This document shows positions 1 to 63,634 of a stretch of 64,000 nt of DNA, in pieces. Source of the DNA: an uncultured Bacteroidales bacterium. GTDB taxonomy: Bacteria; Bacteroidota; Bacteroidia; Bacteroidales; UBA932. The number at the start of each line of letters is the position of its first letter. Position 1 is the stretch's first letter. Under the pieces are notes generated by a model. It was not told the DNA's origin, did no database searches, and saw nothing but the letters and a program-made list of their open reading frames with translations. Location: NCBI GenBank assembly GCA_900316245.1, contig ONCE01000012.1, positions 62,001 to 126,000 of the forward strand, written 5' to 3'. A program made the position numbers and the translations under genes.

Positions 1-793
1 TTTTCTCCAGCGTGAAATCGCGGTAACCTACCGGGATGGCGCAGAACTGCTTCTTGTTGGTGATGGGAACCTGGGGCCAGTAGGGCCACATAACCTTTTC
101 TACAAACTTGGCATCTACCATAGCGTCTCCGGCAACGTCTCCCAGGCACTTGTCAAAATCTTCTGCCGAGGGGAGGTGCCAGCCGGCGGGGCAGGCGGTC
201 TGGGCTTCGGTCCAGGTGTAATACTGGCCGAAGACGGAAGCAAGAATCTCTGAATTTTGGAAATAGGTGCCGGAGTTGGTGCCATACAAGTTGTTGGCCA
301 TCCACGTCTTTCCTTCCAGTTCTACGGTAAGGAAACTGTTGCCGGCAATTTGAACGACGGGAAGGTCCGGCAGGCCGGTAAGGGCCGATACAGGATCTAC
401 AACCGTGAAATTGAGCGTAGCGGAAGCATTGTAGAATTTGTCTCCACCGAAGGCGTAGCAGTACAGGACGTAGTTGCCGGGCTTATCTAATGTAATCTCA
501 TAAGTGGGGTTGGAGACATCTACATTGGTGGTGGTGGTGTCGCGGTCGCTGGTGCCGTTGAGCACGAAGTAGATACCGATGGTTTCCGGGAACGTTTTCT
601 TGTCTGAAGAGACCAGATTGGTTACGTCCGGGGTAACGTGGACGGTTACACCCATTCCCATAAAGGTAGTATGGTCGCTATTGAGAACAAGCCCGCTGAG
701 GGTGGGCTTGGTGGTATCTTCTTCCTTCTTTTTGCAGCTGAAAGCGGTGATCAAAAGAAGCAGTAAAGCGGTGCAGAATATGGTTTTTTTCAT
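1..793 (-). CDS. FISUMP-domain lipoprotein (3' part cut by window edge)
   Basis: The reading frame opens at the ATG at 793 (complement) and is still open at base 1, so about 264 N-terminal residues are visible. It starts with a lipoprotein signal (MKKTIFCTALL... with lipobox TAFSC, Cys20) and then a charged KKKEE stretch. A roughly 130-residue region without clear family identity, possibly an Ig-like fold, precedes a FISUMP domain (Fibrobacter succinogenes major paralogous domain, TIGR02145). Its hallmarks are WMANNL near residue 164 and CPAGWHLPSAEDF near residue 203. Proteins of this family are surface or secreted and their biochemical role is unknown. It diverges from apbE and shares a short intergenic region with it. 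Two more FISUMP lipoproteins lie within 3 kb. Confidence 0.85.
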   Translation of the reverse strand, partial: MKKTIFCTALLLLLITAFSCKKKEEDTTKPTLSGLVLNSDHTTFMGMGVTVHVTPDVTNLVSSDKKTFPETIGIYFVLNGTSDRDTTTTNVDVSNPTYEITLDKPGNYVLYCYAFGGDKFYNASATLNFTVVDPVSALTGLPDLPVVQIAGNSFLTVELEGKTWMANNLYGTNSGTYFQNSEILASVFGQYYTWTEAQTACPAGWHLPSAEDFDKCLGDVAGDAMVDAKFVEKVMWPYWPQVPITNKKQFCAIPVGYRDFTLEK

Positions 794-813
794 CTTTTTT
801 CGCTTGTGTCCGG

Positions 814-821
814 CAAATATC
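814..821 (-). promoter_or_regulatory. Bacteroidota -7 box for the FISUMP gene
   Basis: Complement reads GATATTTG, 7 of 8 matches to TAnnTTTG, 20 nt before the ATG at 793. A TTTG lies about 22 nt upstream as a possible -33 element. Confidence 0.5.
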
Positions 822-833
822 GCAATTTTTTTA

Positions 834-841
834 TAAATTTG
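834..841 (+). promoter_or_regulatory. -7 box for apbE
   Basis: TAAATTTG, a perfect TAnnTTTG match, 32 nt upstream of the apbE ATG. No clear -33 TTTG at standard spacing. Confidence 0.55.
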
Positions 842-873
842 CACAAAAATCTTGCCAAGATATAAGACTCGCT

Positions 874-1911: not shown

Positions 1912-1923
1912 ACACCCCTCTTT

Positions 1924-3867: not shown

Positions 3868-4950
3868 TTACATTCCGGCAATCACTTCCAGGATAAACAC
3901 TAACAGGCGGCTCAGGCTGTCTGTTATTTGTATCAGGAAGCGGGGACACAGGTGCACGGCGTCCAGGATAAGGGCCGATACCGCCGAAGTGAGCAGCCCC
4001 GTGGTAAGCGGAATGCAGAGGAGGTTGGTGAGGAGAAAGTGCCGGGGGAAGCTGTGGAAGCGAACCCAGGCCAGGGGCCCGGTAAAAACTTGGCAGGAGA
4101 GGGCCAGGGCCGATGCCTGCCAGATGCGCCGGAAAGGATCCCACTTGCTGCCGGCGGGGTACCAGCTTTCCAGGACGGGGTAGAGGATGAAGATGCCCGC
4201 CATGGCCAGGTAGGACAGTTGGAAGCCCACGGTCCGGATGACGGAAGGATCCAGTACCAGTTGCACCAGAAGGGCCAGGCAGAGCACTCGGGAGGGCTTT
4301 CGGGGCCGGCCGCTCACCCGCAGCATTTCCCCGATCAGGATGAAAAGGTAAGCGCGCACGATGGAAGGCGAAGCCCCCGTCATAAGCGTGAAGAATCCGC
4401 CGCCCAGGCCAAAGAGGATGAACCGTACCACGGCCGCCGCCTGGGAGCCGCCCCACGGCTTGGTGAACTTGTCCAGCAGCAGGTAGATGATGCCCATATG
4501 AAGGCCGCTGAGGGCCAGCAGATGGCTGGCTCCGCTGGCGCGGAAGTTTTGAACTACATCGGCCTCCAGACCGCTTCGGTCGGCTGTGAGGAAAGCCTTG
4601 AGGAGGGGGGCTGTTACATCGGCCCGAAAGGGGAGAGCGTCTATGCGTGCGCGGAGGGTATCGGCCGCCCCCAAGGCCCACATTTGAAGGGCCGATGTTT
4701 CCTCCATCCCCGGGACCGAGCGTGACAGGGCGCAGAAGAATCCCAGCAGCAAAAAGGCCGCCCAGATGAGCCCCACGGCCCATTTTTCGGGTGCCACGCG
4801 GAGCTTGTTGCGGAAGATGACGGGAAGCAGGAGGAAGGGGAGGAGGAGGCCGCTCCAGGCCCCGGCCGACGGAGCCGAAACCATAGTTCCGGCCACTGCG
4901 CCTGCCGTGAAGAGGACCGACAGCGCTTCTATGCTTTTAGCCTCGGCCAT
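3868..4950 (-). CDS. comEC: ComEC/Rec2-type DNA-uptake channel, reduced form
   Basis: ComEC forms the inner-membrane channel that passes single-stranded DNA into the cell during natural transformation. This 360-residue protein (from the ATG at 4950) contains the polytopic Competence domain (PF03772), recognised by SHLLALSGLHMGIIYLLLD (about residues 138-156), TGASPSIVRAYLF and VGFQLSYLAMAGIF, with many hydrophobic segments to the C terminus. Typical ComEC proteins are 650-800 residues with an N-terminal DUF4131/OB-fold and often a C-terminal metallo-beta-lactamase nuclease domain. Here only a short hydrophobic N terminus remains and nothing follows the channel domain. A GTG/ATG extension to 5010 would overlap the ackA leader, so 4950 is preferred. 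A near-consensus -7 box ends 5 nt before the ATG. Diverges from ackA. Confidence 0.85.
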   Translation of the reverse strand: MAEAKSIEALSVLFTAGAVAGTMVSAPSAGAWSGLLLPFLLLPVIFRNKLRVAPEKWAVGLIWAAFLLLGFFCALSRSVPGMEETSALQMWALGAADTLRARIDALPFRADVTAPLLKAFLTADRSGLEADVVQNFRASGASHLLALSGLHMGIIYLLLDKFTKPWGGSQAAAVVRFILFGLGGGFFTLMTGASPSIVRAYLFILIGEMLRVSGRPRKPSRVLCLALLVQLVLDPSVIRTVGFQLSYLAMAGIFILYPVLESWYPAGSKWDPFRRIWQASALALSCQVFTGPLAWVRFHSFPRHFLLTNLLCIPLTTGLLTSAVSALILDAVHLCPRFLIQITDSLSRLLVFILEVIAGM

Positions 4951-4955
4951 ACGTG

Positions 4956-4963
4956 CGAAATTA
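4956..4963 (-). promoter_or_regulatory. Possible -7 box for comEC
   Basis: Complement TAATTTCG, 7 of 8 to TAnnTTTG, ending 5 nt before the proposed ATG; would give a nearly leaderless mRNA. Confidence 0.35.
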
Positions 4964-4975
4964 GTAATAATTTCG

Positions 4976-4983
4976 TATCTTTG
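4976..4983 (+). promoter_or_regulatory. -7 box for the ackA operon
   Basis: TATCTTTG, perfect match, 31 nt before the ackA ATG. Confidence 0.65.
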
Positions 4984-5014
4984 CACAGATGTACTGAATT
5001 TAAATTCCAACTAT

Positions 5015-6229: not shown

Positions 6230-6233
6230 GAAA

Positions 6234-14756: not shown

Positions 14757-14763
14757 CGGCCGA

Positions 14764-45568: not shown

Positions 45569-45665
45569 GGTGCGGTAGTTCAGTCGGTTTAGAATACCGG
45601 CCTGTCACGCCGGGGGTCGCGAGTTCGAACGCCGGGGGTCGCGAGTTCGAGCCTCGTCCGCACCG
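45569..45665 (+). tRNA. tRNA-Asp (GTC) with a 22-nt internal tandem duplication
   Basis: Acceptor GGTGCGG/CCGCACC with discriminator G, D-arm GTTC/GAAT, anticodon stem CCGGC/GCCGG with loop CTGTCAC (anticodon GTC) and T-arm GCGAG/CTCGT define tRNA-Asp. Bases 45607-45628 are repeated exactly at 45629-45650, so the 3' anticodon-stem strand, variable loop and 5' T-arm occur twice and the gene is 97 nt instead of 75. Without one unit the cloverleaf is normal. Either the extra unit is looped out as a long variable arm, the gene is inactive, or the assembly is wrong here. Confidence 0.85.
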
Positions 45666-45667
45666 CA

Positions 45668-51387: not shown

Positions 51388-51395
51388 TATCTTTG
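51388..51395 (+). promoter_or_regulatory. -7 box for the nusG-like/uvrA unit
   Basis: TATCTTTG, perfect, 21 nt before the ATG at 51417. Confidence 0.65.
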
Positions 51396-51416
51396 TTTAC
51401 TTATCTGCCGGGGTTG

Positions 51417-52031
51417 ATGGACAAGAATTGGTACGCTATAAAAGTCTTTTTCAACAAGGTGTTCAAAATGGAGGACATCTTGTCCGATATGGATTTGGAA
51501 ACGTACCTGCCCGTTCAGAAAGTAAGGCTCCGTGGCCTGGAACATATGAAGGCGGCCAAATTGCTGGCAGCGGTAGACGCCAACCACAGAAAAGACAGCC
51601 GCTACATCCAGCAGGGCCCCATTATTTTCGAGCGTAAACCCCTGGTAGCCTCCCTCATTTTTGTAAAGGCCGATGACAACGAAATCCAAGCCATAGACAA
51701 CCGCCTCCAGGAAGAAAGGATCCTGGGGCAAGTGCAAGGATTTATCTACAAATCGGCCGATTTTAAGAAACGGGCCACCATCCCCGAAAAGCAGATGGAG
51801 TCTTTCCGCCTGCTTACAGAAAACGGAGACGGCCTTACCTTCTACACGGCCGACTTGGTCAAACTGATGGAGGGAGACAAAGTGCGCGTCATTGAAGGAC
51901 CGCTCAAGGGGGCCGAAGGATACATCAAACGCATCAAGAAAGACCGCCGCCTGCTGGTCTGTGTGGAGGGCGTGATAGCGGTAGCAACGTCCTACATCCC
52001 GGACAGTATGTTGGAAAAGATAACGGAATAG
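51417..52031 (+). CDS. NusG-paralogue transcription antiterminator (UpxY-like)
   Basis: 204 residues from 51417 (MDKNWYAIKVFFNKVFKMED). The NGN domain (NWYAIKVF ... RKPLVASLIFVKADDNEI, about 3-100) and a C-terminal KOW domain (GDKVRVIEGPLKGAEGYIKRIKKDRRLLVCVEG, about 160-195) make a specialised NusG paralogue. In Bacteroides, UpxY proteins of this build allow read-through of long capsular polysaccharide operons. Here the gene is followed after 3 nt by uvrA, not by glycan genes; the surface-glycan cluster starts 3 kb further on. Whether it acts on that cluster is open. Confidence 0.88.
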   Translation: MDKNWYAIKVFFNKVFKMEDILSDMDLETYLPVQKVRLRGLEHMKAAKLLAAVDANHRKDSRYIQQGPIIFERKPLVASLIFVKADDNEIQAIDNRLQEERILGQVQGFIYKSADFKKRATIPEKQMESFRLLTENGDGLTFYTADLVKLMEGDKVRVIEGPLKGAEGYIKRIKKDRRLLVCVEGVIAVATSYIPDSMLEKITE

Positions 52032-52034: not shown

Positions 52035-54854
52035 ATGCCGGCCGAAGGAAACATAGTCATCCGGCACGCCCGGGTCAACAACCTCAAGGACATTACGGTG
52101 GAGATTCCCCGTAACCGCCTTGTGGTGGTGACCGGCGTATCCGGCAGCGGCAAGAGTTCGCTGGCCTTTGACACGCTGTTTGCAGAGGGGCAGCGCCGCT
52201 TTGCAGAGAGCCTCTCTTCCTATGCCCGCCAGTTCCTGGGCCGAATGGCCAAGCCCGATGTAGAGGCCATCGAGGGCATCCCGCCGGCCATTGCCATAGA
52301 GCAGAAGGTGAACATCCGGAACCCCCGTTCCACGGTGGCTACCACCACAGAGATATACGATTTCCTGCGCCTGTTGTTTGCGCGCATCGGCCGCACCTAT
52401 TCCCCCGTGAGCGGGGAGGAGGTGAAGACCCAGTCCGTCAAGGACGTGCTGGCCTATATGGAGGAAGTGTCCGTCCAGAAGCCTTCGGCCTGGTACATCC
52501 TTTCCAACTTGAACTGGGACGCCCGCAAGGACCACGTGGAACTGATGCTGTCCCTCAAGGAAGAAGGCTTCGGCCGCCTGTTCAATCCGGCCGATGCGTC
52601 CATCCTCCAGATTGAGGATGTGCTCAAGATGGACGGCCAGTACCCCGCCGGCCTTCTGCTCCTGGTGGACCGCGTAAAGACGTCGGGTTCCCTGGACGAG
52701 GATATGCGTACGCGTCTGAACGCATCCGTCCAGTCGGCCTTTGACAAAGGCGACGGAGATATGTCGCTTTATCTGATGGCCGGCTCCGAGCATACCCTCA
52801 AGGCCTTCTCTTCCCGTTTCGAGCGGGACGGCATCGTGTTCCGCAAGCCCGATGAATACCTCTTCTCCTTCAACAGCCCGCTGGGCGCCTGCCCGGTGTG
52901 CGGCGGCCTGGGAAAGATTGTGGGCGTGAGCGAAGACCTGGTGGTGCCGGACAAGACCAAGAGCATCTACGAGGGTGCCATTGCCTGCTGGAGAGGAGAC
53001 AAGATGAGCTGGTTCAAGGACCAGGTGGTCCGCAATTCGGAGAAGTACGGCATCCCCATCTTCGAGCCCTACTGCAAACTCACGGAAGCCCAGAAGCGCA
53101 CGCTCTGGGAGAGCCGTTCCGTGCAGGGGGACGAGTCCACCATCGTGGGCATAGACGAATTCTTTGAATGGGTCGAAAGCAACCGCTACAAGATCCAGTA
53201 CAAGTATATGCTGTCCCGCTACAGCGGGCGCACCACCTGCCACGCCTGCGGCGGCAGCCGCCTCCGCAAAGAGGCGCTGTACGTGAAAGTGGCCGGAAAA
53301 ACCATCCACGACCTGCTGAGTATGACGGTGGAGGAACTCTTGAAGTGGTTCAAGTCCGTGGAACTGACCGCGCACGAGCAGGAAGTGGCGGGGAAGACCA
53401 TCGAGGAGATTGTGTACCGCCTGCAGTGCATCGAGGACGTGGGCCTGGGGTACCTGACGCTGAGCCGTACTATGAATACCCTCTCCGGTGGCGAAAGCCA
53501 GCGGGTGAACCTGGTGACGGCCCTGGGCAGTTCCCTGGTAGGCAGTATGTACATCCTGGACGAACCTTCCATCGGCCTGCATCCGCGCGACACCGAGCGC
53601 CTCATTTCCGTGCTCAAGCGCTTGCGGGACATTGGCAACACCGTAGTGGTGGTAGAGCACGACCCTGAGATTATCCGCAGTGCAGACTGCCTCATAGACC
53701 TGGGCCCCAAGGCCGGGTCCAATGGGGGAGAGATAGTGTATCAGGGAGATCCTCTCGCTTCGCTCGGGAAGACATCCAGTCAATCTCTTACGCTTCAATA
53801 TTTGGCCGGCATCCGGAAGCCGTACGTGCGGGAGAAGAATCCCTGGCGGTACAGCATTACCGTGCAGGGCGCCATGCAGAACAACCTCAAGGACATTGAC
53901 GTCCAGTTCCCCTTGAATGCCTTTACCGTGGTGAGCGGCGTCTCCGGCAGCGGCAAGAGTTCGCTGGTGGGAGACATCCTGTACCCGGCCCTGCACCGTC
54001 GGCTCAACGAGACCGGAGACCTTCCGGGCACCTTCAAGGGCCTGGCCGGGGACCTCAATAGAATTACCCGCGTGGAGTATGTGGACCAGAACCCCATAGG
54101 CAAGAGTTCCCGCTCCAACGCCGTTACTTATCTGAAAGTTTACGACGATATCCGCAAGCTCCTGAGCGAGCAGCAGTACGCCCGCATCAACGGGTACACG
54201 CCGTCGTTCTTCTCCTTCAACCAGGAGGGAGGCCGATGCCCGGAGTGCCAGGGAGACGGCTTCGTGAAGATTGGCATGCAGTTTATGGCCGATGTGACCA
54301 TGGTCTGCGAGAGCTGCGGCGGCAAGCGCTTCAAACCGGACATCCTGGAAGTGCGCTACCAGGGCCTGAACGTAGACGATATCCTGAACCTGAGCGTGGA
54401 GGAGGCCATAGCCTTCTTCGGTGCCCAGAAGGAAGACGCGGCCAAGTCCATTGCCGCCAAACTGCAGCCGCTGGTGGATGTGGGCCTGGGCTATATCAAA
54501 CTGGGCCAGCCGTCCAGCACGCTGAGCGGCGGCGAGAGCCAGCGCATCAAGCTGGCGTACTTCCTGTCGTTGGCCGCCGGCGGCCGCGAGCGCATCCTCT
54601 TCATCTTTGACGAACCTACCACCGGCCTCCATTTCTACGATGTGGAGAAGCTCCTGAAGGCGTTTGACGTGCTCATTTCCAAGGGGCACACGGTGATAGT
54701 GGTAGAACATAACGTAGACGTCATCCGCAGCGCCGACTGGGTCATAGACCTGGGACCCGACGCCGGTGACCGGGGTGGGGAAGTGGTTTTTGCCGGTACC
54801 CCCGAAGACCTAGCGGCCTCTGGCAGTACCTTCACGGCAAAATATCTGGCTTAG
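52035..54854 (+). CDS. uvrA: Excinuclease ABC subunit A
   Basis: 939 residues, standard UvrA length; damage-recognition ATPase of nucleotide excision repair. First ABC module: VTGVSGSGKSSLAFDTLFAE, zinc module CPVCGGLGKI region and CHACGG, LSGGESQRVNL, ILDEPSIGLHP. Second module: VVSGVSGSGKSSL, zinc module CPECQGDGF ... CESCGGKRF, LSGGESQRIKL, FIFDEPTTGLHF. Starts 3 nt after the nusG-like stop, so it shares that promoter. Its last 4 nt overlap the convergent waaA. This gene also marks the last stretch rich in the GGCCGAT word before the island. Confidence 0.97.
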   Translation: MPAEGNIVIRHARVNNLKDITVEIPRNRLVVVTGVSGSGKSSLAFDTLFAEGQRRFAESLSSYARQFLGRMAKPDVEAIEGIPPAIAIEQKVNIRNPRSTVATTTEIYDFLRLLFARIGRTYSPVSGEEVKTQSVKDVLAYMEEVSVQKPSAWYILSNLNWDARKDHVELMLSLKEEGFGRLFNPADASILQIEDVLKMDGQYPAGLLLLVDRVKTSGSLDEDMRTRLNASVQSAFDKGDGDMSLYLMAGSEHTLKAFSSRFERDGIVFRKPDEYLFSFNSPLGACPVCGGLGKIVGVSEDLVVPDKTKSIYEGAIACWRGDKMSWFKDQVVRNSEKYGIPIFEPYCKLTEAQKRTLWESRSVQGDESTIVGIDEFFEWVESNRYKIQYKYMLSRYSGRTTCHACGGSRLRKEALYVKVAGKTIHDLLSMTVEELLKWFKSVELTAHEQEVAGKTIEEIVYRLQCIEDVGLGYLTLSRTMNTLSGGESQRVNLVTALGSSLVGSMYILDEPSIGLHPRDTERLISVLKRLRDIGNTVVVVEHDPEIIRSADCLIDLGPKAGSNGGEIVYQGDPLASLGKTSSQSLTLQYLAGIRKPYVREKNPWRYSITVQGAMQNNLKDIDVQFPLNAFTVVSGVSGSGKSSLVGDILYPALHRRLNETGDLPGTFKGLAGDLNRITRVEYVDQNPIGKSSRSNAVTYLKVYDDIRKLLSEQQYARINGYTPSFFSFNQEGGRCPECQGDGFVKIGMQFMADVTMVCESCGGKRFKPDILEVRYQGLNVDDILNLSVEEAIAFFGAQKEDAAKSIAAKLQPLVDVGLGYIKLGQPSSTLSGGESQRIKLAYFLSLAAGGRERILFIFDEPTTGLHFYDVEKLLKAFDVLISKGHTVIVVEHNVDVIRSADWVIDLGPDAGDRGGEVVFAGTPEDLAASGSTFTAKYLA

Positions 54855-56035
54855 TCGAAGATGGTGTCTACGATGGTATGCGTGGCACCCGTTGAACTTA
54901 GGACGTAGTCTTTGGAGATGGCGGCCGCTTTCTCTACAAATTCATGATCTGAGATGCATCTGTCAAAGTAGGCTTCCAATTCCTGCTGGTCTTTGACGGG
55001 GAATGCGGCTCCCAGGGCCGTAAGGTTGCGGCAGTGGGATTCACGACCATAGACTGGACCGAAACTGATAGGCATGCCGAAAACGGCTGGCTCCACCACG
55101 CTGTGCGGCATGTTGTCTGTAAAGCCTCCGCCGATGAGGGAAGCGAAACCGTAGCGGTACAGGCGGGCCAGCATGCCGACGGTGTTGATAACCAGGATCT
55201 GTGCATTCAGCAGCTTTTCGTCGGGTTCCTTTCCTTCGTAATCTGTGTATCTGACAGCGCAGTGCTGTGCCTGGGCCAGAATGGCATCGACCTCCTTGGG
55301 GTCTGTCTCATGGGGGATGATCATGATTTTCTGGTCGGGATGGCTGTTCGCGATTTTGAGCATCATCTCATCTTCGGCCGGGAAGGTGCTGCCGGCCATG
55401 AAGACTTTCTTACCCTTGCACCAGGCGTCCACGACCGGATTGCTCCAAGGTTCCTTGAGGATGTCTGCCACGCGGTCCAGGCGCGGATCTCCGGTGATTC
55501 TTACCTTGGGGACGCCCAGTTTGGTGAGCACGTCGTAGCTCATCTGGTCCCGCACCATGACGCAGTTGTAGCAGTTGCGCATAATCTGGCGATAGTTGAA
55601 GTCCCACCAGCTTAGGTGGTAGGAGTCCGGCTCTACGTGCACAGACATGATGTAGGTGTCAATCTTGCGGCGTCGGAGCATATTCATCATAACAGGCCAG
55701 AAGTCCGTGATGGTGAAGATGACCTTGGAGGGACGGACGGCATCCAGGAAACGTTTCATGTCCCAGGGTGTATCCAACGGGATGTAGAACACCCAGTCTA
55801 CTTTATCATAATGCTGGAGCGGAATGAATCCGGTAGGGGAAAAGAAGGTGAGCAGGATTTTCCCTTTCGGGAAACGGGCCCGCGTGGCTTCGATGACCGG
55901 ACGAGCTTCCTCGAACTCTCCGTACGAGGGCACGTGGAACCAGATGATGTCTTGATTTCCTTTTACGGCGGCTTCAATTTTGGGAAGCAGGCCTTTGCGG
56001 CCCTTGATGAACAGTTTCAGTTTCTCAATATTCAT
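54851..56035 (-). CDS. waaA: Kdo transferase (WaaA/KdtA)
   Basis: 394 residues from 56035 (MNIEKLKLFIKGRKGLLPKI). Transfers Kdo from CMP-Kdo to lipid A at the inner membrane. The glycosyltransferase N domain shows IWFHVPSYGEFEEARPVIEA (the catalytic Glu in the GEF motif) and KILLTFFSPTGF; the C domain has RITGDPRLDRV, KVFMAGSTFPAEDE and LIGGGFTDNMPHSVVEPAVFG, all typical of WaaA. The N-terminal membrane anchor common in WaaA is reduced to a short basic helix. CATG-rich and lacking GGCCGAT, unlike uvrA next to it, so it belongs to the compositional island. Divergent from the nonulosonate genes. Confidence 0.9.
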   Translation of the reverse strand: MNIEKLKLFIKGRKGLLPKIEAAVKGNQDIIWFHVPSYGEFEEARPVIEATRARFPKGKILLTFFSPTGFIPLQHYDKVDWVFYIPLDTPWDMKRFLDAVRPSKVIFTITDFWPVMMNMLRRRKIDTYIMSVHVEPDSYHLSWWDFNYRQIMRNCYNCVMVRDQMSYDVLTKLGVPKVRITGDPRLDRVADILKEPWSNPVVDAWCKGKKVFMAGSTFPAEDEMMLKIANSHPDQKIMIIPHETDPKEVDAILAQAQHCAVRYTDYEGKEPDEKLLNAQILVINTVGMLARLYRYGFASLIGGGFTDNMPHSVVEPAVFGMPISFGPVYGRESHCRNLTALGAAFPVKDQQELEAYFDRCISDHEFVEKAAAISKDYVLSSTGATHTIVDTIFD

Positions 56036-56057
56036 GCTTCGGTTTTCTTTCCAGGGG

Positions 56058-56065
56058 CAAAGATA
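56058..56065 (-). promoter_or_regulatory. -7 box for waaA
   Basis: Complement TATCTTTG, perfect, 22 nt before the ATG at 56035. Confidence 0.65.
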
Positions 56066-56098
56066 CCTCAATTTCTTGATTTTCGTGAGGAATTATAG

Positions 56099-56106
56099 TA
56101 AATTTG
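56099..56106 (+). promoter_or_regulatory. -7 box for the nonulosonate-rml cluster
   Basis: TAAATTTG, perfect, 27 nt before the ATG at 56134. No further box is seen before rmlA, so one transcript through 63634 is likely. Confidence 0.6.
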
Positions 56107-56133
56107 TAAGTTATAGAAAAGAAGTAGAAAGAT

Positions 56134-57156
56134 ATGTTAAACGGAAAATCAGTTCTCATTACCGGCGGAACGGGCTCATTTGGAAAGAAGTTCGTGGAGG
56201 TTATCCTGAGGGATTATCCTCAGGTTAAGAAGATTATCATTTATTCGCGGGATGAATTGAAACAGTTTGAACTGAAACAGAAGTATCCGGAGTATAAATA
56301 TCCGATGATGCGTTATTTCATTGGAGACGTGCGTGACCTGGAGCGGCTTACCCGCGCCTGCGAAGGCGTCGATGTCATTATCCATGCGGCGGCCATCAAA
56401 CAGGTAGATACAGCCGAGTACAACCCGGATGAATGTATCAAGACCAATGTGCACGGCGCTCAGAATGTGATCAAAGCCGCTTTGGCCACGGGTGTCAAGG
56501 ATGTGGTCGCCCTGTCTACAGACAAGGCCTGCGCCCCCATCAACCTGTATGGAGCTACCAAACTCACCAGCGACAAACTTTTCTGCGCCGCCAACAATAT
56601 CAGCGGCGCCCGGCCCATTAAATTCTCGGTGGTCCGCTATGGAAACGTCATGGGCTCCCGTGGCTCGGTTATTCCCTTCTTTATCAACAAGCGGGACAGC
56701 GGTGCAAAGGAACTTCCCATCACCGATTTTCGCATGACGCGCTTCAACATTTCCCTGGAAGCGGGTGTCGCTCTGGTGATGTATGCGCTGGGCCACCATC
56801 TGGGCGGGGAAATCTTCATTCCCAAGATTCCTTCCTATCACATCAAGGACGTGGCCAAGGCCATTGCCCCCCATCTGCCTCAAGTAGAGGTGGGTATCCG
56901 TCCCGGAGAGAAACTGCACGAGGAAATGATCACGGTCACCGACGCCCTGGATACCATCGACCTGGGCCGTTATTATGTGATTCTCCCTTCGGTCTCGGAT
57001 AAACACACGCGGGAGGAATTCATTCAGCACCACCATGCCAAGCCGGTTCCGGAAGGTTTCCATTACAGCTCGGACAACAATACCGAGTGGGAAACCGTGG
57101 AATCCATGCGGGAGAACATCCGGAAATTCGTTGACCCTAATTTTGAGGTGAAATGA
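56134..57156 (+). CDS. pseB: UDP-GlcNAc 4,6-dehydratase, PseB-like
   Basis: 340 residues of the extended SDR polysaccharide-synthesis family. NAD loop VLITGGTGSFGKKF (about 7-20), GDVRDLERL, HAAAIKQVDTAEYNPDE, catalytic region STDKACAPINLYGATK (Ser...Tyr-x3-Lys), and VVRYGNVMGSRGSVIPFF. The AAxKQV and short length fit PseB (C5-inverting dehydratase, first step to pseudaminic acid) and related FnlA/CapE enzymes; exact stereochemistry cannot be told. Followed by a nucleotidyltransferase-like gene overlapping by 4 nt. Confidence 0.88.
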   Translation: MLNGKSVLITGGTGSFGKKFVEVILRDYPQVKKIIIYSRDELKQFELKQKYPEYKYPMMRYFIGDVRDLERLTRACEGVDVIIHAAAIKQVDTAEYNPDECIKTNVHGAQNVIKAALATGVKDVVALSTDKACAPINLYGATKLTSDKLFCAANNISGARPIKFSVVRYGNVMGSRGSVIPFFINKRDSGAKELPITDFRMTRFNISLEAGVALVMYALGHHLGGEIFIPKIPSYHIKDVAKAIAPHLPQVEVGIRPGEKLHEEMITVTDALDTIDLGRYYVILPSVSDKHTREEFIQHHHAKPVPEGFHYSSDNNTEWETVESMRENIRKFVDPNFEVK

Positions 57157-57890
57157 GTGTAAACGCTATCATTCAGGCCCGTTGCGGTTCAACCCGGTTC
57201 CCGGCCAAGGTCTTTGCCGACATTGACGGCAAGCCTCTTATCTGGCATGTGGTCGACCGCCTCAAACATACCAATAAGATTGATAAAATCATCATTGCCA
57301 CCACTGTTTCGTCTAAGGATGACAGAATAGAGGAGTGGTGCAGGGAGAATGGCGTAGATTGTTTCCGTGGCAGCGAGGAGAATGTCCTTAACCGTTATTA
57401 CAGCGCATCGGAAGCCTTCCCGTCGGATTATGTGGTCCGCATTACCGCCGATGACCCCTTCAAGGAGCCTGCTGTCATTGACGCTGTCATTACTAAGTTG
57501 CTGGAAGAGGGTTTTGACCACGTTACCAACAACCTGCCTCCTTCCTTCCCGGAAGGACTCGATTGCGAGGCATTCCGGAAATCGGCCCTGGACCGTTCCG
57601 AAAAGGAAGCCGAGACCGATTTTGAGCGCGAACACGTAACGCAGTACATCTATCACCATCCGGAAATCTTCAAAATTGGCAACGTGTCATGCGACCGTCA
57701 GCTTTCGCATCTTCGCTGGACCATCGACAAAGAAGCAGACCTGGAAATGGTGCGTGCCGTCTATGCGCACCGAAACCCGGAAAACAGGGGAATCCTGCTG
57801 ATGGAAGAAATCCTCCAGATCCTGAAAGACAACCCGGAGATTGAGAAGATCAATTCCGAGGTCGAAAGAAGTGCGATGTATAAATCATAA
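57153..57890 (+). CDS. SpsF/PseF-like cytidylyltransferase family protein
   Basis: 245 residues. NAIIQARCGSTRFPAKVFADIDGKPL (nucleotide-binding N terminus), TVSSKDDRIEEWC, YVVRITADDPF (metal Asp) and RWTIDKEADLEMVRAVY match COG1861/SpsF, the cytidylyltransferase-like partner found in spore-coat and nonulosonic acid clusters, which would make the CMP-activated sugar. It overlaps the pseB-like gene by 4 nt and precedes the aminotransferase by 12 nt. Sugar specificity is inferred only from the neighbours. Confidence 0.85.
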   Translation: MSVNAIIQARCGSTRFPAKVFADIDGKPLIWHVVDRLKHTNKIDKIIIATTVSSKDDRIEEWCRENGVDCFRGSEENVLNRYYSASEAFPSDYVVRITADDPFKEPAVIDAVITKLLEEGFDHVTNNLPPSFPEGLDCEAFRKSALDRSEKEAETDFEREHVTQYIYHHPEIFKIGNVSCDRQLSHLRWTIDKEADLEMVRAVYAHRNPENRGILLMEEILQILKDNPEIEKINSEVERSAMYKS

Positions 57891-57902
57891 AAATAAAATA
57901 GA

Positions 57903-59081
57903 ATGGAACGCATTTCCGATTTAGAAAGAAAATACGTAAACGAAGCATTGGATAATGCCTTCGCCACCTCGAAGAATTCCATCTTCAATACCCGGCTCGA
58001 AAAAGAGTTCGCCCAGAAGTTCGGAATGAAATATGCCATTGGCAGCAGCAACGGAACGGCCACGCTGCACACAGCCGTTGCCGCCCTGGGCATCAAGCCC
58101 GGCGAGGAAGTGATTGCCCCCGCCCTTACCATGTCCAGCTCGTCCTTCGGCATCATCATGGCCGGTTGCAATCCCGTTTTTGCCGACAGCGACCGTGAGA
58201 CCTTCCAGATTACGGCAGAAAGCATCGAGAAGTGCATTACCCCCAAGACCCGGGCTGTCATGACGGTGGCCCTCTATGGATTCTGCCCCGACTACGACAA
58301 TATTATCGAGGTTTGCAAGAAGCACAACCTCTATCTGATAGAAGACAATGCAGAGGCCTTTGGCGCCAAGTATAAGGGCAAGCTGGTGGGAACCTTCGGT
58401 GACTTCTCCAGCTTCAGTTTCCAGGCCTCCAAGCACCTGACCACCGGTGAAGGCGGCATGCTCTTGACCGACAATCTGGAGCTGGCCGATGAAGCCCGCC
58501 GTTTCGGCTGCCTGGGTTATGGCAGCGTAGGTGCCACCAAGCAGAAGATTTCCCGCAATGACATCCAGGATCCGGCCTATTTCCGTCATGTGAGCGTCGG
58601 CTTCAACTACCGCATGTCGGAATTACAGGCCGCCTGTGCCCTGGGTCAGTTGGAGCGCTCCGACGAACTCGTCCAGAACTTCAAGGATTGCGCGAAAATA
58701 TTCGATGAAGCGCTCAAGGGACAGAATCTGCTGATCCCCGAAAAGGCACCCGAGGGCTGCGAGCCTTCGTACTGGACCTACTGCTGCGTCCTGAATACCG
58801 ACAAGCCCGAGAAGGAATGGTACGAGTTCCGTGACCTGTTCCAGAAGAATGGCGGAGACCCTTACTATGCTGCCTGGAAGCTCTCTTATCAGGAGCCTGC
58901 TTTCCAGAACATCGTTCATAATCAGCCGGGTATCTGGCAGTCATACGAGCCTGGCCTTTGCCCGAATTCAGAGTATCTCCAGTTGCGCATGATCCAGCTC
59001 AAGACCAACTATTGGGATCTGGATGAATGCAAGCAGCAGGCCGAGATCCTTCACAAGACTATCCAAGAGTTCCAAAAGTAA
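57903..59081 (+). CDS. DegT/DnrJ/EryC1 aminotransferase, PseC-like
   Basis: 392 residues, PLP-dependent sugar aminotransferase. Substrate and cofactor motifs: AIGSSNGTATLHTAVAALG, EVIAPALTMSSSSF, LIEDNAEAFGAKYKG and the PLP lysine in SFQASKHLTTGEGGML (about 180). In the cluster it would aminate the 4-keto sugar made by the PseB-like dehydratase. CATG is frequent in this gene, unlike the chromosome around the cluster. Confidence 0.9.
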   Translation: MERISDLERKYVNEALDNAFATSKNSIFNTRLEKEFAQKFGMKYAIGSSNGTATLHTAVAALGIKPGEEVIAPALTMSSSSFGIIMAGCNPVFADSDRETFQITAESIEKCITPKTRAVMTVALYGFCPDYDNIIEVCKKHNLYLIEDNAEAFGAKYKGKLVGTFGDFSSFSFQASKHLTTGEGGMLLTDNLELADEARRFGCLGYGSVGATKQKISRNDIQDPAYFRHVSVGFNYRMSELQAACALGQLERSDELVQNFKDCAKIFDEALKGQNLLIPEKAPEGCEPSYWTYCCVLNTDKPEKEWYEFRDLFQKNGGDPYYAAWKLSYQEPAFQNIVHNQPGIWQSYEPGLCPNSEYLQLRMIQLKTNYWDLDECKQQAEILHKTIQEFQK

Positions 59082-59089
59082 TAACCAAT

Positions 59090-60151
59090 ATGTTGGATTT
59101 CAACCAAAACATCAAGATTGGAGACCGCATGATCGGTCCCGACTATCCTACCTATATCATCGCCGAGATTGGTGGTAACTTCGACGGCAGCCTGGATAAG
59201 GCCAAGCGCCTGATTGACGCTGCCAAGGCAGCCGGCGCCGACTGTGCCAAGTTCCAGACTTTCAAGGCCGAGAGCATCGTTTCCGAGGGCGGTTTTTCCA
59301 AGATGACCCTGCACGGAGTACATGGCTCCTGGGGCCGCACCGTCACCGAGGTCTTCAAGGATGTGGAACTTCCGCTGGAGTGGCATCAGGAGCTGGCCGA
59401 CTATTGCAAGAAGGTAGGGATTGATTTCTCCACCTCTCCTTACAACAAAGAGGCTGTGGACCTCTGCGCCGACATGAAGCTGCCTTTCATCAAGATTGGT
59501 TCCGGCGAAATCACCTGGCTGGAAATGCTGGACTACATTGCCCGTAAGGATATTCCCATCATGCTGGCCACCGGCGACGCCACCATGTCCGAGATTGACG
59601 AGGCCGTACGCACCATCGAAAAGACCGGCAATAAGGACTTTGTGCTGATGCAGTGCATCACCAACTATCCTTCCAAATTGGAGAGCGCCAACGTAAACGT
59701 GCTCAAGACCTATCAGAGTGCCTTCGGCTGCCTCACCGGTTACAGCGACCACGCTCCCGGTCCCGTCGTGGCCATCGCCTCTGTGGTGCTGGGTGCCCGT
59801 GTCATTGAGAAGCACTTCACCCTGAACAAGAAGGATAAAGGTCCCGACCACCCGCACTCGATGGAACCGGCCGAGTTCAAGTTCATGGTAGACAGTATCC
59901 GCGAGGTAGAGAAAGCCATGGGCAGCACCCGTAAGGAAGTGCAGAAAGAGGAAGGCGAGACTGTCTTTGTCCAGCGCCGCTGCCTCTATGCCAAGCACGA
60001 CCTGAAGAAAGGCCAGGTAATCAAGGAAGAAGACCTGGACGTGCTACGTCCCGCCCTGGGAATCCTGCCCAAGTACAAGAATGTAGTCATCGGCAAGGCT
60101 GTCAACAAGGACATCCCAGCCCGTGATCCCATCTTCTGGGAAGACCTTTAG
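59090..60151 (+). CDS. Nonulosonic acid synthase (NeuB/PseI family)
   Basis: 353 residues from the ATG at 59090. Condenses phosphoenolpyruvate with a six-carbon amino sugar to a nine-carbon sialic-acid-like sugar. Catalytic TIM barrel (about 1-275) with YIIAEIGGNFDGSLDKAK, AKFQTFKAES, KIGSGEITWLEML, TGYSDHAPGPVVAIASVVLG, IEKHFTLNKKDKGPDHPHS; C-terminal SAF (antifreeze-like) domain about 285-353 (RRCLYAKHDLKKGQVIKEED, VVIGKAVNKDI). The GPDHPHS metal site fits NeuB/PseI/LegI. Which nonulosonate is formed is uncertain. Confidence 0.93.
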   Translation: MLDFNQNIKIGDRMIGPDYPTYIIAEIGGNFDGSLDKAKRLIDAAKAAGADCAKFQTFKAESIVSEGGFSKMTLHGVHGSWGRTVTEVFKDVELPLEWHQELADYCKKVGIDFSTSPYNKEAVDLCADMKLPFIKIGSGEITWLEMLDYIARKDIPIMLATGDATMSEIDEAVRTIEKTGNKDFVLMQCITNYPSKLESANVNVLKTYQSAFGCLTGYSDHAPGPVVAIASVVLGARVIEKHFTLNKKDKGPDHPHSMEPAEFKFMVDSIREVEKAMGSTRKEVQKEEGETVFVQRRCLYAKHDLKKGQVIKEEDLDVLRPALGILPKYKNVVIGKAVNKDIPARDPIFWEDL

Positions 60152-60161
60152 TCTCCGGATC

Positions 60162-60749
60162 ATGATTACCGATAGGGAAATCATATTGGCTATCGTGGAC
60201 AATGACTGTCTCACGCACTCCGACGCGGCTGTCCTGCTGGAAGGAGACGGTTTTTTCCGCTTCCAGAAAGCGGTGGAACTGTACAAGCACGGGCTTGTAG
60301 ACCGCATTGTGTTTAGCGGCAACATCATTGACAAGGATTACGGCAGTTTCCCTTACGAGGAAGTTGCTCCCTTCATCCTGAACCAGGGGGTTCCCGAAAA
60401 GGACCTGATCCACGAGAACAAATCCATGCACACCCGCCAGCAAGCCATCGAAGTGGTGAAAATGGCCATGGAAAGGGGCTGGAAGAAGTTGGCCCTTGTG
60501 GCTTCCCACGAGCATCAATATCGCGCCTATCTCACGTTCCTGCGTGAAGTGCTGGACAGTAAGAGCGGCATTATCCTGTACAATGCCCCGGTTCGTAACC
60601 TGAACTGGTTCGTGGATAGCGGGTGGGGATACCGCTTCGACCGCCTCCTGGCCGAGTTTGAGCGTATTGAGAAATATGGCGCTATGGGTCATTTGGCCAC
60701 CGCCGAAGAAGTAATTGAGTACCAACGATGGAAAGAATCTCTGCTGTAG
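60162..60749 (+). CDS. DUF218 (YdcF/ElyC-like) protein
   Basis: 195 residues from 60162 (MITDREIILAIVDNDCLTH). The segments GLVDRIVFSGNIIDKDYG, KDLIHENKSMHTRQQAIEVV and KKLALVASHEHQYRAYLTFLRE match the DUF218 fold, whose members include ElyC/SanA/YdcF envelope proteins of uncertain activity. No signal peptide, so cytosolic. Placed inside the nonulosonate cluster, 10 nt after the synthase gene and overlapping the next gene by 22 nt. It could act on a sugar-phosphate or nucleotide-sugar intermediate in place of the absent PseG hydrolase, but this is speculation. Confidence 0.85.
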   Translation: MITDREIILAIVDNDCLTHSDAAVLLEGDGFFRFQKAVELYKHGLVDRIVFSGNIIDKDYGSFPYEEVAPFILNQGVPEKDLIHENKSMHTRQQAIEVVKMAMERGWKKLALVASHEHQYRAYLTFLREVLDSKSGIILYNAPVRNLNWFVDSGWGYRFDRLLAEFERIEKYGAMGHLATAEEVIEYQRWKESLL

Positions 60750-61318
60750 AACTGCGTCCGCTGCTGGACGCCTTGGGGCTTTCCGGGGCCGAAGTAACGG
60801 AAACGGCTGTCCCTTTCGGGGATGCTGTCCTGGAAAAGGCCCATCAGGAAGGGTATATCCTTGTCTGGTGCCCGTCCTCCATTGCCGGGCACGCCATCAC
60901 TCTCCGCTTCCTGCGGGAGCGCTTCGGGATAGATCCAGCCGTATCTGAGCCGTGTTTCTACAACCAGGACTGGTACCTTGCAGAGTCCTTCATGGACCAG
61001 CCCCTGGACAACAGCTGGCACCTCATCAAAAAGGAAGTCTTGGAGGAATCCCGTGCCGTACAGCCCGGCGACTTACTAGCAGCCGGGTGCTCTTTCCCGC
61101 CGGCCGTGGTCTGTGCCTGGACCTTTTTCGCCTGGTATTATGCCAGGAGTGAATATCTCTGGTGGCACGACTTTGTGTGGTGTTCCGACGTCGACCACAA
61201 TGGGGACCGCGTCTATGTGGGTAAGTATCACGACATTGACGGCATAAACAAGAACGGTTTCAGCATTCACCGCCATCTGGCCCTGAGACCGTGTTATGCC
61301 GCAGTTTCATACCAATAG
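60728..61318 (+). CDS. Unknown protein of the nonulosonate cluster
   Basis: 196 residues, no signal peptide or membrane segment that is clear. I recognise no family. The N-terminal half (AVELRPLLDALGLSGAEVTE, HAITLRFLRERFGIDPAVSE) is followed by FYNQDWYLAESFMDQPL, a Trp-rich core (AWTFFAWYYARSEYLWWHDF) and VWCSDVDHNGDRVYVGKYHD. Tryptophans and histidines suggest an enzyme core. Overlap of 22 nt with the DUF218 gene and 3-nt spacing to rmlA indicate cotranscription. It may fill one of the steps missing from the cluster (N-acetylation or nucleotide removal) or modify or transfer the sugar. Confidence 0.75.
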   Translation: MERISAVELRPLLDALGLSGAEVTETAVPFGDAVLEKAHQEGYILVWCPSSIAGHAITLRFLRERFGIDPAVSEPCFYNQDWYLAESFMDQPLDNSWHLIKKEVLEESRAVQPGDLLAAGCSFPPAVVCAWTFFAWYYARSEYLWWHDFVWCSDVDHNGDRVYVGKYHDIDGINKNGFSIHRHLALRPCYAAVSYQ

Positions 61319-61321
61319 CCT

Positions 61322-62218
61322 ATGAAAGGAATTGTACTGGCCGGTGGGTCCGGCACCCGACTTTATCCCATTACCAAGGGCGTGAGCAAGCAGCTCCTGC
61401 CGGTTTACGACAAGCCCATGGTGTACTATCCCATTAGCGCTCTGATGCTGGCGGGCATCCGGGATATCCTCATCATCTCCACGCCGCAGGATCTGCCTGC
61501 TTTCAAGCGCCTGCTGGGCAGCGGAGAAGAATTCGGCCTACATCTTTCCTACGCCGAGCAGCCGTCTCCGGACGGCCTGGCCCAGGCTTTCATCATCGGC
61601 AAGGAATTCATCGGTCAGGACAGCGTGTGCCTGGTGCTGGGAGACAACATCTTCCACGGCGCGGGCTTTTCCCCGCTTCTGAAGGAGGCGGTCCGTACGG
61701 CCGAAGAGGATAGCAAGGCTACGGTCTTCGGCTATTGGGTGAGCGATCCCGAGCGTTACGGCGTGGCCCAGTTTGACAAGGCCGGCAACTGCCTTTCCAT
61801 TGAGGAGAAACCCGAGCATCCCAAGAGCAATTATGCCGTGGTGGGCCTCTACTTCTATCCCAACAAGGTGGTGGAGGTAGCCCAGAGCATCAAGCCTTCG
61901 GCCCGCGGAGAACTGGAGATTACCACCGTGAACCAGGAATTCCTGAGGGACGGCCAGCTCAAGGTCCAGACGCTGGGCCGCGGTTTTGCCTGGCTGGATA
62001 CCGGTACCCACGACTCCTTGGCCGAAGCCTCCATCTACATTGAAACCATAGAGAAGCGCCAGGGCCTCAAGGTGGCCTGCCTGGAGGGCATCGGCCTGCG
62101 ACAGGGGTGGATTACCCCGGCTCAGGTGCGCAAGGAGGCCGCCCCTATGGCCAAGAACCAGTATGGCCAGTATCTGCTGAAACTGGCCGATGATGTGGAA
62201 AACGGCATTTATGATTGA
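61322..62218 (+). CDS. rmlA: Glucose-1-phosphate thymidylyltransferase
   Basis: 298 residues. Makes dTDP-glucose from glucose 1-phosphate and dTTP, first step of dTDP-rhamnose synthesis. Motifs: [22 protein letters not shown] start, [61 protein letters not shown]. Codon and CATG use return to the backbone pattern here (only one CATG). Overlaps rmlC by 8 nt. Confidence 0.97.
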
Positions 62219-62789
62219 AGTTAAGCATACGGAGATACCGGGCCCGCTGGTGATTGAACCCAAAGTGTTTGGGGACCACCGGGGCTATTTCTTTGAGAGT
62301 TGGAGCCAGCGGGATTTTGACGCGGCCGTGCGCCCCATCCACTTTGTGCAGGACAACGAGAGCAAGAGCCGGTACGGCGTGCTCCGCGGCCTGCATTACC
62401 AGAAGGGAGCCTGCGCCCAGAGCAAACTGGTACGCGTGGTCAAGGGCCGGGTGCTGGACATTGCGGTGGATATCCGCCGCGGCTCACCCTGGTTTGGTAA
62501 GCACGTGACGTGCGAACTCTCCGAGGAAAACCACCTGCAGTTCTTTGTGCCGCGCGGCTTTGCCCACGGATTTGTGGTTCTCAGTGAAGAGGCTGTTTTC
62601 CAATACAAGTGCGACTATCCCTACGCCCCGGAGTCCGAGGGCGCCATCGCTTGGAATGACCCTGCTCTGGGCATTGACTGGCGCATCCCGGAGGCCGATA
62701 TCCTGCTCTCCGAGAAAGACAAGCACCATCCGCTGCTGGTGGAGGCCACCGATTTGTTTGACTATTCCATAGACTATTACGCAGAATGA
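62211..62789 (+). CDS. rmlC: dTDP-4-dehydrorhamnose 3,5-epimerase
   Basis: 192 residues from 62211. Cupin-fold epimerase of dTDP-rhamnose synthesis: [33 protein letters not shown] (catalytic His), [33 protein letters not shown] (Asp/Tyr region follows) and [12 protein letters not shown]. Overlaps rmlA by 8 nt and rmlD by 4 nt. Confidence 0.97.
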
Positions 62790-63634
62790 AGATCCTGGTA
62801 ACCGGTGCCAACGGCCAGTTGGGAATGAGCCTCAGAAAAAGGGCCGATCAGGTGGAAAATGACTGGTTCTTCACAGACGTGGAAGAACTGGACATCACGG
62901 ATGCCGCCGCCGTCAAGGCTATGGTGGCGCAGAACCGGATTGATACCATCATCAACTGCGCAGCCTATACCAATGTAGATGCCGCCGAGGACAACGAACC
63001 CCTGGCCGAACGGCTCAACGCCCAGGCGGTGGAGAACCTGGCTCTGGCTATGAAGGAAGTGGGCGGCCGGCTCATCCACATTTCTACGGATTACGTGTTT
63101 GGCGGAGAGCCGCACAATACGCCCTGCCGGGAGGACCTTCCGGCCTGCCCCACGGGCGCCTATGGCCGCACCAAACTCCACGGGGAAGAAGCCATCCTGC
63201 GCTCCGGCGTGCGGTATCTGATTGTCCGTACCAGCTGGCTCTACAGCGAGTACGGCAAGAATTTCCTCAAGACTATGCTGCGCCTCACGTCCGAGAAACC
63301 TTCCCTCAAGGTGGTCTTTGACCAGGTGGGAACCCCCACCTATGCCGGAGATCTGGCGGAGGCTATCCTGAAAATGGCCGCACAGGACGGCCGGGATGGA
63401 ATCTATCATTATAGCAACGAGGGCGTATGCTCCTGGTATGACTTTGCCAAGGCCATTGCTGAATATTCCGGGCATACGGAGTGCGCCATTCAGCCGTGCC
63501 ACAGCGACGAGTTCCCTTCCAAGGTGGTCCGTCCCGCTTATTCCGTTCTGGACAAGACCAAGGTCAAGGAGACCTTCGGCCTGTCTGTCCCTTACTGGAC
63601 GGATTCCCTCAAGAAGTGCCTCAAGAACCTCTGA
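62786..63634 (+). CDS. rmlD: dTDP-4-dehydrorhamnose reductase
   Basis: 282 residues; reduces dTDP-4-keto-rhamnose to dTDP-L-rhamnose. SDR motifs ILVTGANGQLGMSLRK (about 2-17), INCAAYTNVDAAEDN, HISTDYVFGG, and catalytic Tyr/Lys in AYGRTKLHGEE. Last gene of the run; rmlB (4,6-dehydratase) is not in the window. Its 3' end overlaps the convergent DUF4906-like gene by 14 nt. Confidence 0.97.
   Translation: MKILVTGANGQLGMSLRKRADQVENDWFFTDVEELDITDAAAVKAMVAQNRIDTIINCAAYTNVDAAEDNEPLAERLNAQAVENLALAMKEVGGRLIHISTDYVFGGEPHNTPCREDLPACPTGAYGRTKLHGEEAILRSGVRYLIVRTSWLYSEYGKNFLKTMLRLTSEKPSLKVVFDQVGTPTYAGDLAEAILKMAAQDGRDGIYHYSNEGVCSWYDFAKAIAEYSGHTECAIQPCHSDEFPSKVVRPAYSVLDKTKVKETFGLSVPYWTDSLKKCLKNL

Follow-up and report, generated by a model that had tools for sequence, protein, structure and literature searches.

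A clade-inherited genome word, KGCCGAT, in Cryptobacteroides-like Bacteroidales, mostly of the ruminant gut

The window analysed here, a 64,000-base stretch of DNA from an uncultured Bacteroidales bacterium (GTDB lineage UBA932; assembly GCA_900316245.1, contig ONCE01000012.1, positions 62,001 to 126,000), carries a comEC-like gene, a NusG-like gene, a uvrA-like gene and a glycan island of the nonulosonic-acid type (Table 1), and scattered along it are many copies of the seven-base word GGCCGAT. By exact matching there are 78 copies, 38 on the forward strand and 40 on the reverse, compared to a mean of 11.9 (standard deviation 3.3, largest value 20) in 100 dinucleotide-preserving shuffles. The first-pass annotation of this DNA had estimated about 75 copies (36 and 38 in the two orientations) where 10–12 would be expected, and the recount bears this out; 10 of the 14 positions that it listed are exact, and the other four are shifted by one or two bases (27496, 38725, 43806 and 62841 stand for 27495, 38723, 43805 and 62842). 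It had also put the number of copies extended to GGGCCGAT at about 31, and we count 31. The whole genome (2.24 Mb in 35 contigs) contains 2,561 copies of GGCCGAT, or 1.14 per kb, divided 1,281 to 1,280 between the contig strands, so the proposals that the word is balanced between strands and as dense as uptake sequences both hold.

With a maximal-order Markov model as the null, GGCCGA scores highest of the window's 6-mers (182 seen, 110 expected, z = 10.2), and GGCCGAT is the top 7-mer by a first-order score; under the maximal-order model GGCCGAT is expected 68 times, the 6-mers accounting for most of its 78 copies. Sorted by their final base, GGCCGAT (78) is followed by GGCCGAA (59), GGCCGAC (27) and GGCCGAG (18), and the NGCCGAN words with a first base other than G occur 2–11 times each. 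The earlier observation that GGCCGAC is rarer than GGCCGAT therefore stands, but GGCCGAA is also high, and it is the one exception to the finding that other NGCCGAN words are not equally enriched. Because GGCCGAA is high and the other NGCCGAN words are low, we take GGCCGA with a final T or A as the core of the word in this genome. The flanks of GGCCGAT add little–the preceding base is weakly A or G, and the following base is rarely C (0.06)–and a longer consensus of the uptake type was rejected on these grounds.

We used a null model in which synonymous codons are permuted within each gene, preserving both the protein and its codon usage, on a sample of this genome (G000) that comprises 311 kb in 20 stretches besides the window and contains 312 genes. 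For gene calling we relied on a codon-model script of our own, which under-calls low-G+C deep relatives (101 of 382 kb in deep group 3), so that for those genomes the raw densities are the safer figure. Under the synonymous shuffle GGCCGAT ranks first among all 7-mers, with 384 copies seen and 93–94 expected (z = 30). It is raised in five of the six gene frames and at expectation in the sixth: the seen and expected counts are 21 and 1.4 for GGC-CGA-T, 4 and 3.5 for xGG-CCG-AT and 177 and 40.5 for xxG-GCC-GAT in the forward frames, and 76 and 41.8 for ATC-GGC-C, 8 and 1.2 for xAT-CGG-CC and 98 and 5.8 for xxA-TCG-GCC in the reverse frames. GGCCGAA is raised too, in the same frames. The word lies on the coding strand of genes 202 times and on the template strand 182 times. 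Between genes (101 short pieces, 11.1 kb) it occurs 10 times where 1.1 are expected, the sixth-highest 7-mer score there, and all uncalled sequence, in which comEC and some other genes missed by the script are counted, has 43 copies compared to 7.2 expected.

Together, the synonymous shuffles, the frames and the intergenic copies rule out codon usage, protein composition and codon pairs as the cause. The argument made at first pass that protein composition cannot explain the word is thus upheld, and the codon-context alternative raised alongside it is rejected, since a null model that takes codons into account predicts about 94 copies in the sample and not 384. That a preference for particular codon pairs or oligonucleotide contexts has produced the word, with no reader involved, is in our view very improbable. 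The genome does have other biases that could be read in this way (GGAA, CCAG, TCCGGA and GGAGAC are up; CGAC, CATG, TCGA and GATC are down), but GGCCGAT is raised in codon frames as unrelated as Gly-CGA and xxA-TCG-GCC as well as between genes, and its enrichment is concentrated in one clade and conserved by site, as described below, so this explanation is already contradicted.

Table 1. Copies of GGCCGAT and other features of the 64,000-base window; position 1 is the first base of the window.
Feature	Position	Strand	Remarks
All 78 GGCCGAT sites	383..62848	both	exact match
GGCCGAT starts, part 1	383, 3973, 4108, 4690, 8903, 10399, 10631, 11002, 14758, 16603, 18100, 19228, 20393, 22570, 23659, 23729, 24423, 25646, 26141	+	
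GGCCGAT starts, part 2	27135, 27495, 31044, 32240, 35025, 38723, 40001, 43736, 43805, 50567, 51668, 51755, 52589, 54231, 54287, 58484, 62185, 62693, 62842	+	
GGCCGAT, part 1	4558, 4618, 4660, 5123, 9321, 11128, 11288, 13893, 14755, 15561, 16057, 17393, 18932, 19043, 23764, 24823, 28386, 30562, 31443, 31698	-	
GGCCGAT, part 2	32117, 32949, 33899, 38409, 38608, 41427, 41661, 44070, 44423, 46381, 47316, 48605, 49023, 50105, 50461, 51752, 52386, 53571, 57581, 62090	-	
ATCGGCCGAT, two overlapping copies in opposite orientation	14755..14764		at start of frame 13614-14756 (-)
ATCGGCCGAT, the window's second overlapping inverted pair	51752..51761		within NusG-like gene 51393-52031 (Pfam)
uvrA-like gene	52035..54854	+	5 words: 52386, 52589, 53571, 54231, 54287
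comEC-like gene (Competence domain, 380 aa)	3868..5010	-	PF03772, E = 6.3e-42
Glycan island (nonulosonic-acid type)	54855..61320		three genes by Pfam: Polysacc_synt_2, DegT, NeuB
Predicted tRNA-Asp	45569..45666		98 nt; alignment with locus L141 suggests that 22 bp of the 3' part are duplicated in tandem (45607-45628 and 45629-45650), which may be an integration scar or a misprediction

The word is not a trait of the whole genus. Among the 54 genus genomes counted, including this one, 10 have more than 450 copies of GGCCGAT per Mb: about 1,515 in G216, 1,237 in G225, 1,142 in our genome, 831 in G258, 780 in G202, 742 in G259, 681 in G278, 527 in G275, 491 in G200 and 475 in G272. The remaining 44 range from about 74 to 409 per Mb (the genome sizes behind these figures are rounded). 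A reversed-word control was set aside because that word contains TAG, which biases its counts low. By the synonymous shuffle, the seen and expected counts are 127 and 19 in G216, 80 and 22 in G225 and 49 and 15 in G202, compared to 93 and 91 in 12 other genomes pooled. Farther afield, a survey of 198 genomes of the phylum gave high raw counts in some distant genomes of other families such as f29 and f11 (for example 1,902 copies in 3.8 Mb in G135 and 1,435 in 7.2 Mb in G190).

A scan for UvrA in named genomes gave 80 loci, all from Bacteroidales or Bacteroidia assemblies, many of them titled as rumen or other ruminant gut and two as Candidatus Cryptobacteroides; the genus name used here for the window is taken from these titles. 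For each named genome the density was taken from one locus of 3.5–23 kb around uvrA, and loci with at least 0.8 words per kb were classed as rich. The name of the uvrA-like gene, which served as the orthologue for the tree and for most of the conservation test below, rests on our reading of its sequence. The tree of 81 UvrA rows (quick search) has one group of 34 rows (SH-aLRT 93) that consists of 30 rich and 4 intermediate rows, and the 33 most distant rows are all word-poor; the three density labels need 9 changes on this tree, compared to 31.5 with shuffled labels. The rich rows outside the group are L184, which adjoins it, and L172 in the sister group (ratio to shuffle only 1.8). The sister group as a whole is weakly enriched when pooled (71 seen, 43 expected, 1.7-fold), and deeper groups stand at 0.6–1.3 of the shuffle, with one small group at 9 seen and 5 expected.

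In the comparisons that follow, the 34 word-bearing loci are L140-L162, L170, L171, L173, L174, L176, L178 and L180-L184. Among loci with G+C over 0.52 their median density is 1.28 words per kb, versus 0.31 in the others, which rules out G+C content as the cause. Pooled short intergenic pieces contain 4 words where 0.7 are expected in the word-bearing loci, and none where 1.3 are expected in the 46 others. The drive from amino acid sequence is weak: Ala-Asp pairs are at 1.27 of expectation in the clade loci, 1.07 in our genome and 1.04 in other loci, and Ser-Ala pairs are at 0.92, 1.13 and 0.87 (for this analysis, and for those of intergenic CGA, Val GTC and the strand proxy, the clade set excludes L172 and the window). 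The word belongs to one mostly ruminant-gut clade of Cryptobacteroides-like Bacteroidales, whose members have it on both strands at a density of around one per kb, and we infer a single origin, or a few, near the clade's base.

Among the eight subgroups tested, six have GGCCGAT as their strongest 7-mer, one of these being the single locus L184. In subgroups E and F, TGCCGAT is as strong or stronger (42 seen and 12 expected versus 33 and 10 for GGCCGAT in E; 28 and 6 versus 23 and 8 in F), and therefore the consensus of the clade is KGCCGAT. A distant member of the genus, G228 (UvrA 65%), has instead GGCCAAT (136 seen, 34 expected) and TGCCAAT (135 and 34) by the synonymous shuffle of 260 kb; GGCCAAT is at least two-fold raised there in all six frames, with 3 intergenic copies where 1.6 are expected. 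The sequence of this one genome suggests that KGCCAAT is a one-letter 'dialect' of KGCCGAT. Two further lineages may have words of their own, GGCAATG in G227 (111 seen, 31 expected by synonymous shuffle) and TGAATAT in G230 (94 and 34); both signals are weaker, and sequence context may account for part of them. We saw no comparable word in the top lists of the other genus members sampled, for which the samples are small (7 to 60 kb). The genus has other oligonucleotide biases. TCCGGA is raised in many members as a second, shared word (1.78-fold in the 12 pooled genomes, and about 4.7-fold between genes in G213). CATG is nearly absent from the samples of G228 (loci L019-L020, L099 and L231-L240), G227 (L016-L018, L097-L098 and L247-L250) and G219 (L050-L052), at 0.08, 0.14 and 0.10 of shuffle expectation, a scarcity much like the avoidance of a restriction target, and GATC is avoided in the same three genomes and in several other members.

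Between orthologues, the word is kept in place more often than other 7-mers are. The 147 words in the UvrA genes of 35 word-bearing species occupy just 19 sites of the alignment, three of which are common to 25, 32 and 32 species. Where the amino acids are identical, a word in one UvrA gene is identical in its partner in 0.753 of comparisons, versus 0.302 for other 7-mers (these pairs are not independent), and the difference remains when it is taken by residue pair (0.755 versus 0.203 for Ala-Asp; 0.842 versus 0.388 for Ile-Gly). For 29 genes of our own genome, again at identical amino acids, word-rich partners retain the word in 0.687 of 182 comparisons, versus 0.334 for other 7-mers, and word-poor partners retain it in 0.262 of 145, versus 0.222. 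The pattern does not hold at Gly-Arg sites (0.286 for words, 0.321 for others). In the nearest relative, L176, 10 of 13 words are kept, and 0.458 of all 7-mers are identical; outside uvrA, word-rich partners keep 37 of 78 words. Of the five sites in our own uvrA, three occur in many word-poor relatives as well (19, 12 and 8 of 36).

The copies follow a Poisson distribution along the genome (dispersion 0.985 in 70 windows of 5 kb; coefficient of variation of spacing 0.99), with no sign of an even or periodic arrangement. The glycan island has the 2 copies reported for it at first pass, where 7.9 are expected (Poisson P = 0.015), but its depletion is weak evidence because the copies are Poisson-spread overall and there are other word-poor windows, ribosomal-protein operons among them. 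In two ribosomal-protein stretches (18 genes, 9.8 kb) there are 2 words where the shuffle expects 1.8, and in the other 294 genes of the sample there are 382 where it expects 90. We saw no depletion in genes of atypical codon usage; the most typical quartile is the poorest (0.93 words per kb, versus 1.30 in the least typical). By tenths of gene length, the last tenth has 19 words, the first 27, and those between 30–55.

The Poisson spread, with copies in genes and between them, favours the explanation that the word is not a signal at all but a by-product, like the HIP1 word of cyanobacteria, of DNA modification and mismatch repair (or some other biased repair) that favours the word. So do the depletion of many near-misses, described below, the lack of enrichment in the ribosomal-protein stretches, where codon selection is likely to be strong, and the existence of other words in other lineages, as reported for cyanobacteria in the available part of PMC4390886. 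The Elhai model for HIP1, as presented there, has the word accumulate without function and rests on a methyltransferase. In the 10 word-rich genomes we found the Dam-like methyltransferase family PF02086 in seven, the C5 family PF00145 in three, the N4/N6 family PF01555 (over cut-off) in three and the N6 family PF02384 in two. No methyltransferase from these four families is common to all 10 (other families were not searched, and the genomes are incomplete), and none of the four gives a match in G216, the genome densest in words, at 91% completeness. The suggestion at first pass that the word is a methylation target thus gains no support from the families searched. A mechanism of m5C deamination and Vsr-type repair was also rejected, both because a C5 methyltransferase is present in only three of the 10 genomes and not in G216, and because, where the clade avoids GTC before G, the gain is mostly in GTG and not in GTT. 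GGCCGAT is moreover not palindromic. We consider a HIP1-like origin possible but doubtful, and rank it second.

A different kind of pressure is suggested by the scarcity of CGA, the centre of the word. CGA stands at 0.64 of shuffle expectation in our genome, 0.57 in G216 and 0.76 in G225, compared to 0.95 in the 12 other genus genomes pooled. GGCCGA is the only strongly raised NNNCGA in these three genomes (2.07, 2.16 and 1.86, where the median context is at 0.55, 0.41 and 0.69), and subgroup A has CGA at 0.45 and GGCCGA at 2.31. Among loci with G+C over 0.52, the median density of CGA/TCG is 24.3 per kb in the 34 word-bearing loci and 40.1 in 19 others. In G228 the trinucleotide slightly below expectation is CAA (0.88), whose most raised contexts are TGCCAA (1.83) and GGCCAA (1.70). 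All this is what would be seen if a defence system or nuclease purged CGA-centred sequences and KGCCGA were exempt. Protection adds no copies, however, yet the density in the word-bearing loci is about four-fold that of their relatives; word density and CGA density show no correlation within the word-bearing group (29 loci, rho = -0.10, p = 0.6); and the intergenic depletion of CGA differs little between word-bearing and control loci (0.69 versus 0.80), a contrast biased by the 16 control loci having been partly chosen for CGA above 33 per kb, a choice that does not affect the other CGA figures above. We therefore regard such protection as unlikely and rank it third. Against the same biased control set, GTC codons for Val before G fall to 0.08 in word-bearing loci while GTG rises.

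A Chi-type signal for a RecBCD or AddAB enzyme would also be a short, GC-rich, non-palindromic and dispersed word, and known Chi words are of similar length. They are biased toward the leading strand, though, and GGCCGAT is not: by a GC-skew proxy for the replication strand, which uses the local skew of short stretches, its counts are 124 and 145, 325 and 291, and 49 and 44, and the coding and template counts given above are close to each other too. Because of this absence of strand bias, a Chi-type role seems to us highly unlikely.

KGCCGAT is, then, a real genome word at the DNA level, inherited within a clade, conserved by site and with at least one related dialect. Its conservation at sites shared by related species points to its being read by the cell as a signal, and something in the cells probably recognises the word and so keeps it. 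Our best guess, ranked first with a probability of roughly 0.38, is that KGCCGAT is a self-recognition signal in DNA uptake or recombination. The reader would be a step of self-DNA recognition in uptake or recombination, by way of the transformation route that Bacteroidota use without a pilus. If DNA from kin that bears the word were taken up and recombined preferentially, copies lost to mutation would be repaired and new ones would spread; a receptor that changed its specificity could give rise to one-letter dialects such as KGCCAAT in G228. In favour of this reading are the density and strand balance of the word, its enrichment in most frames and in intergenic DNA, its restriction to a clade, its conservation by site and its dialects, together with the presence of a comEC-like gene and of DprA and the example of Riemerella described below. 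The comEC gene noticed at first pass is confirmed by its Competence domain, and it is a candidate gene of the uptake machinery that may be connected to the word; at 380 aa the frame may lack parts of longer ComEC proteins, of which such forms exist. A more specific version, held tentatively, is that gut Bacteroidota have a form of self-recognition in which the specificity of the reader drifts (KGCCGAT, KGCCAAT, perhaps GGCAATG and TGAATAT), the machinery is not a pilus, and the centre of the word is avoided elsewhere (CGA; CAA in G228).

Several observations weigh against a signal in uptake. We know of no experiment that shows members of this genus to be competent or to favour particular DNA in uptake. 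At 7 bp, with little flanking consensus, the word is shorter than known uptake sequences, and overlapping inverted pairs (spacing 3, ATCGGCCGAT) are rare, at 7 of 409 spacings in the sample of our genome. DprA is present in all 10 genus genomes checked, word-rich or word-poor alike, and therefore does not single out the word-bearing clade; of the earlier proposal of an uptake-like or other signal word, the genome-wide DNA-level signal stands but the identification with uptake does not follow. The pilus ATPase family PF00437 is over cut-off in none of the 10 word-rich genomes; in 20 genomes it is over cut-off in one, which is word-poor, and the other 19 have only weak or additional partial matches. 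The conservation test is mostly a test of uvrA, which supplies 169 of the 247 word-partner pairs. Nine methyltransferase loci of word-rich genomes (33 kb) have 3 words, which would speak for uptake, but eight of them have a G+C content of 0.42-0.47 (the ninth 0.62), which confounds the low count. Avoidance of CGA outside the word runs contrary to what an uptake drive predicts. So, in part, do the one-mismatch forms: among the 12 that are changed in the GGCC half, 8 are at or below 0.7 of the shuffle in our genome, 7 in G216 and 4 in G225, compared to none in the pooled other genomes, and a change in one of the last three bases mostly leaves a form at about 1 or higher (GGCCGAA is at 2.79, 1.63 and 1.44 in the three genomes). 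According to the available part of PMC1939737, singly mismatched uptake sequences are over-represented in Haemophilus influenzae and Neisseria gonorrhoeae under another null model. Our mixed pattern leans against an uptake sequence, bearing in mind that our null model differs from the one in that text.

Genome-wide signal words are known from few lineages. We found no report of such a word in Bacteroidales, and no genome-wide word of validated function in Bacteroidota, in the open-licence literature of PubMed Central, a search that did not cover subscription papers and preprints. If KGCCGAT is an uptake signal, it would point to natural transformation in a large and little-cultured rumen and gut group and offer a direct way to the receptor through which Bacteroidota take up DNA without a pilus. 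Should it instead be a HIP1-like product, a second and independent system, with word-rich and word-poor relatives, would be available for testing the question posed by HIP1 by comparative gene content. With about 30 word-bearing genomes at species level (one locus each) and close relatives that are free of the word, the question is testable.

Among known systems, the cyanobacterial HIP1 (GCGATCGC) and its alternatives are, like KGCCGAT, short iterated words at about one per kb that are dispersed and replaced between lineages, but, in the available part of PMC4390886, HIP words are palindromes that generally come with cognate methyltransferases, whereas GGCCGAT is not a palindrome and has no clade-wide methyltransferase among the four families. 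Chi sites are likewise short, GC-rich, over-represented and non-palindromic, but they are strand-biased and GGCCGAT is balanced by the proxy. Within the phylum, Riemerella transforms without detected pilus homologues and needs ComEC and DprA, which are also found here; the available parts of PMC8459023 and PMC7965970 describe no validated uptake word. By their account R. columbina prefers its own DNA, and the k-mers given there are A-rich, with their role left open. The uptake sequences of Neisseriaceae (DNA uptake sequence, DUS) and Pasteurellaceae (uptake signal sequence, USS) are 9–12 bp long. Our word differs from them in being 7 bp, in its depleted near-misses, in the avoidance of CGA outside the word–a feature that we did not meet in the available literature on DUS, USS or HIP1, for which no dedicated search was made–and in the absence of a type IV pilus ATPase over cut-off from the word-rich genomes studied here. 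It resembles them in occurring about once per kb, in being non-palindromic, and in its presence on both strands and both in genes and between them, as well as in its inheritance by clade and its lineage dialects with a common core. The Neisseria uptake sequence has dialects as well, as described in the available part of PMC3630211, and the pattern of KGCCGAT and KGCCAAT resembles them.

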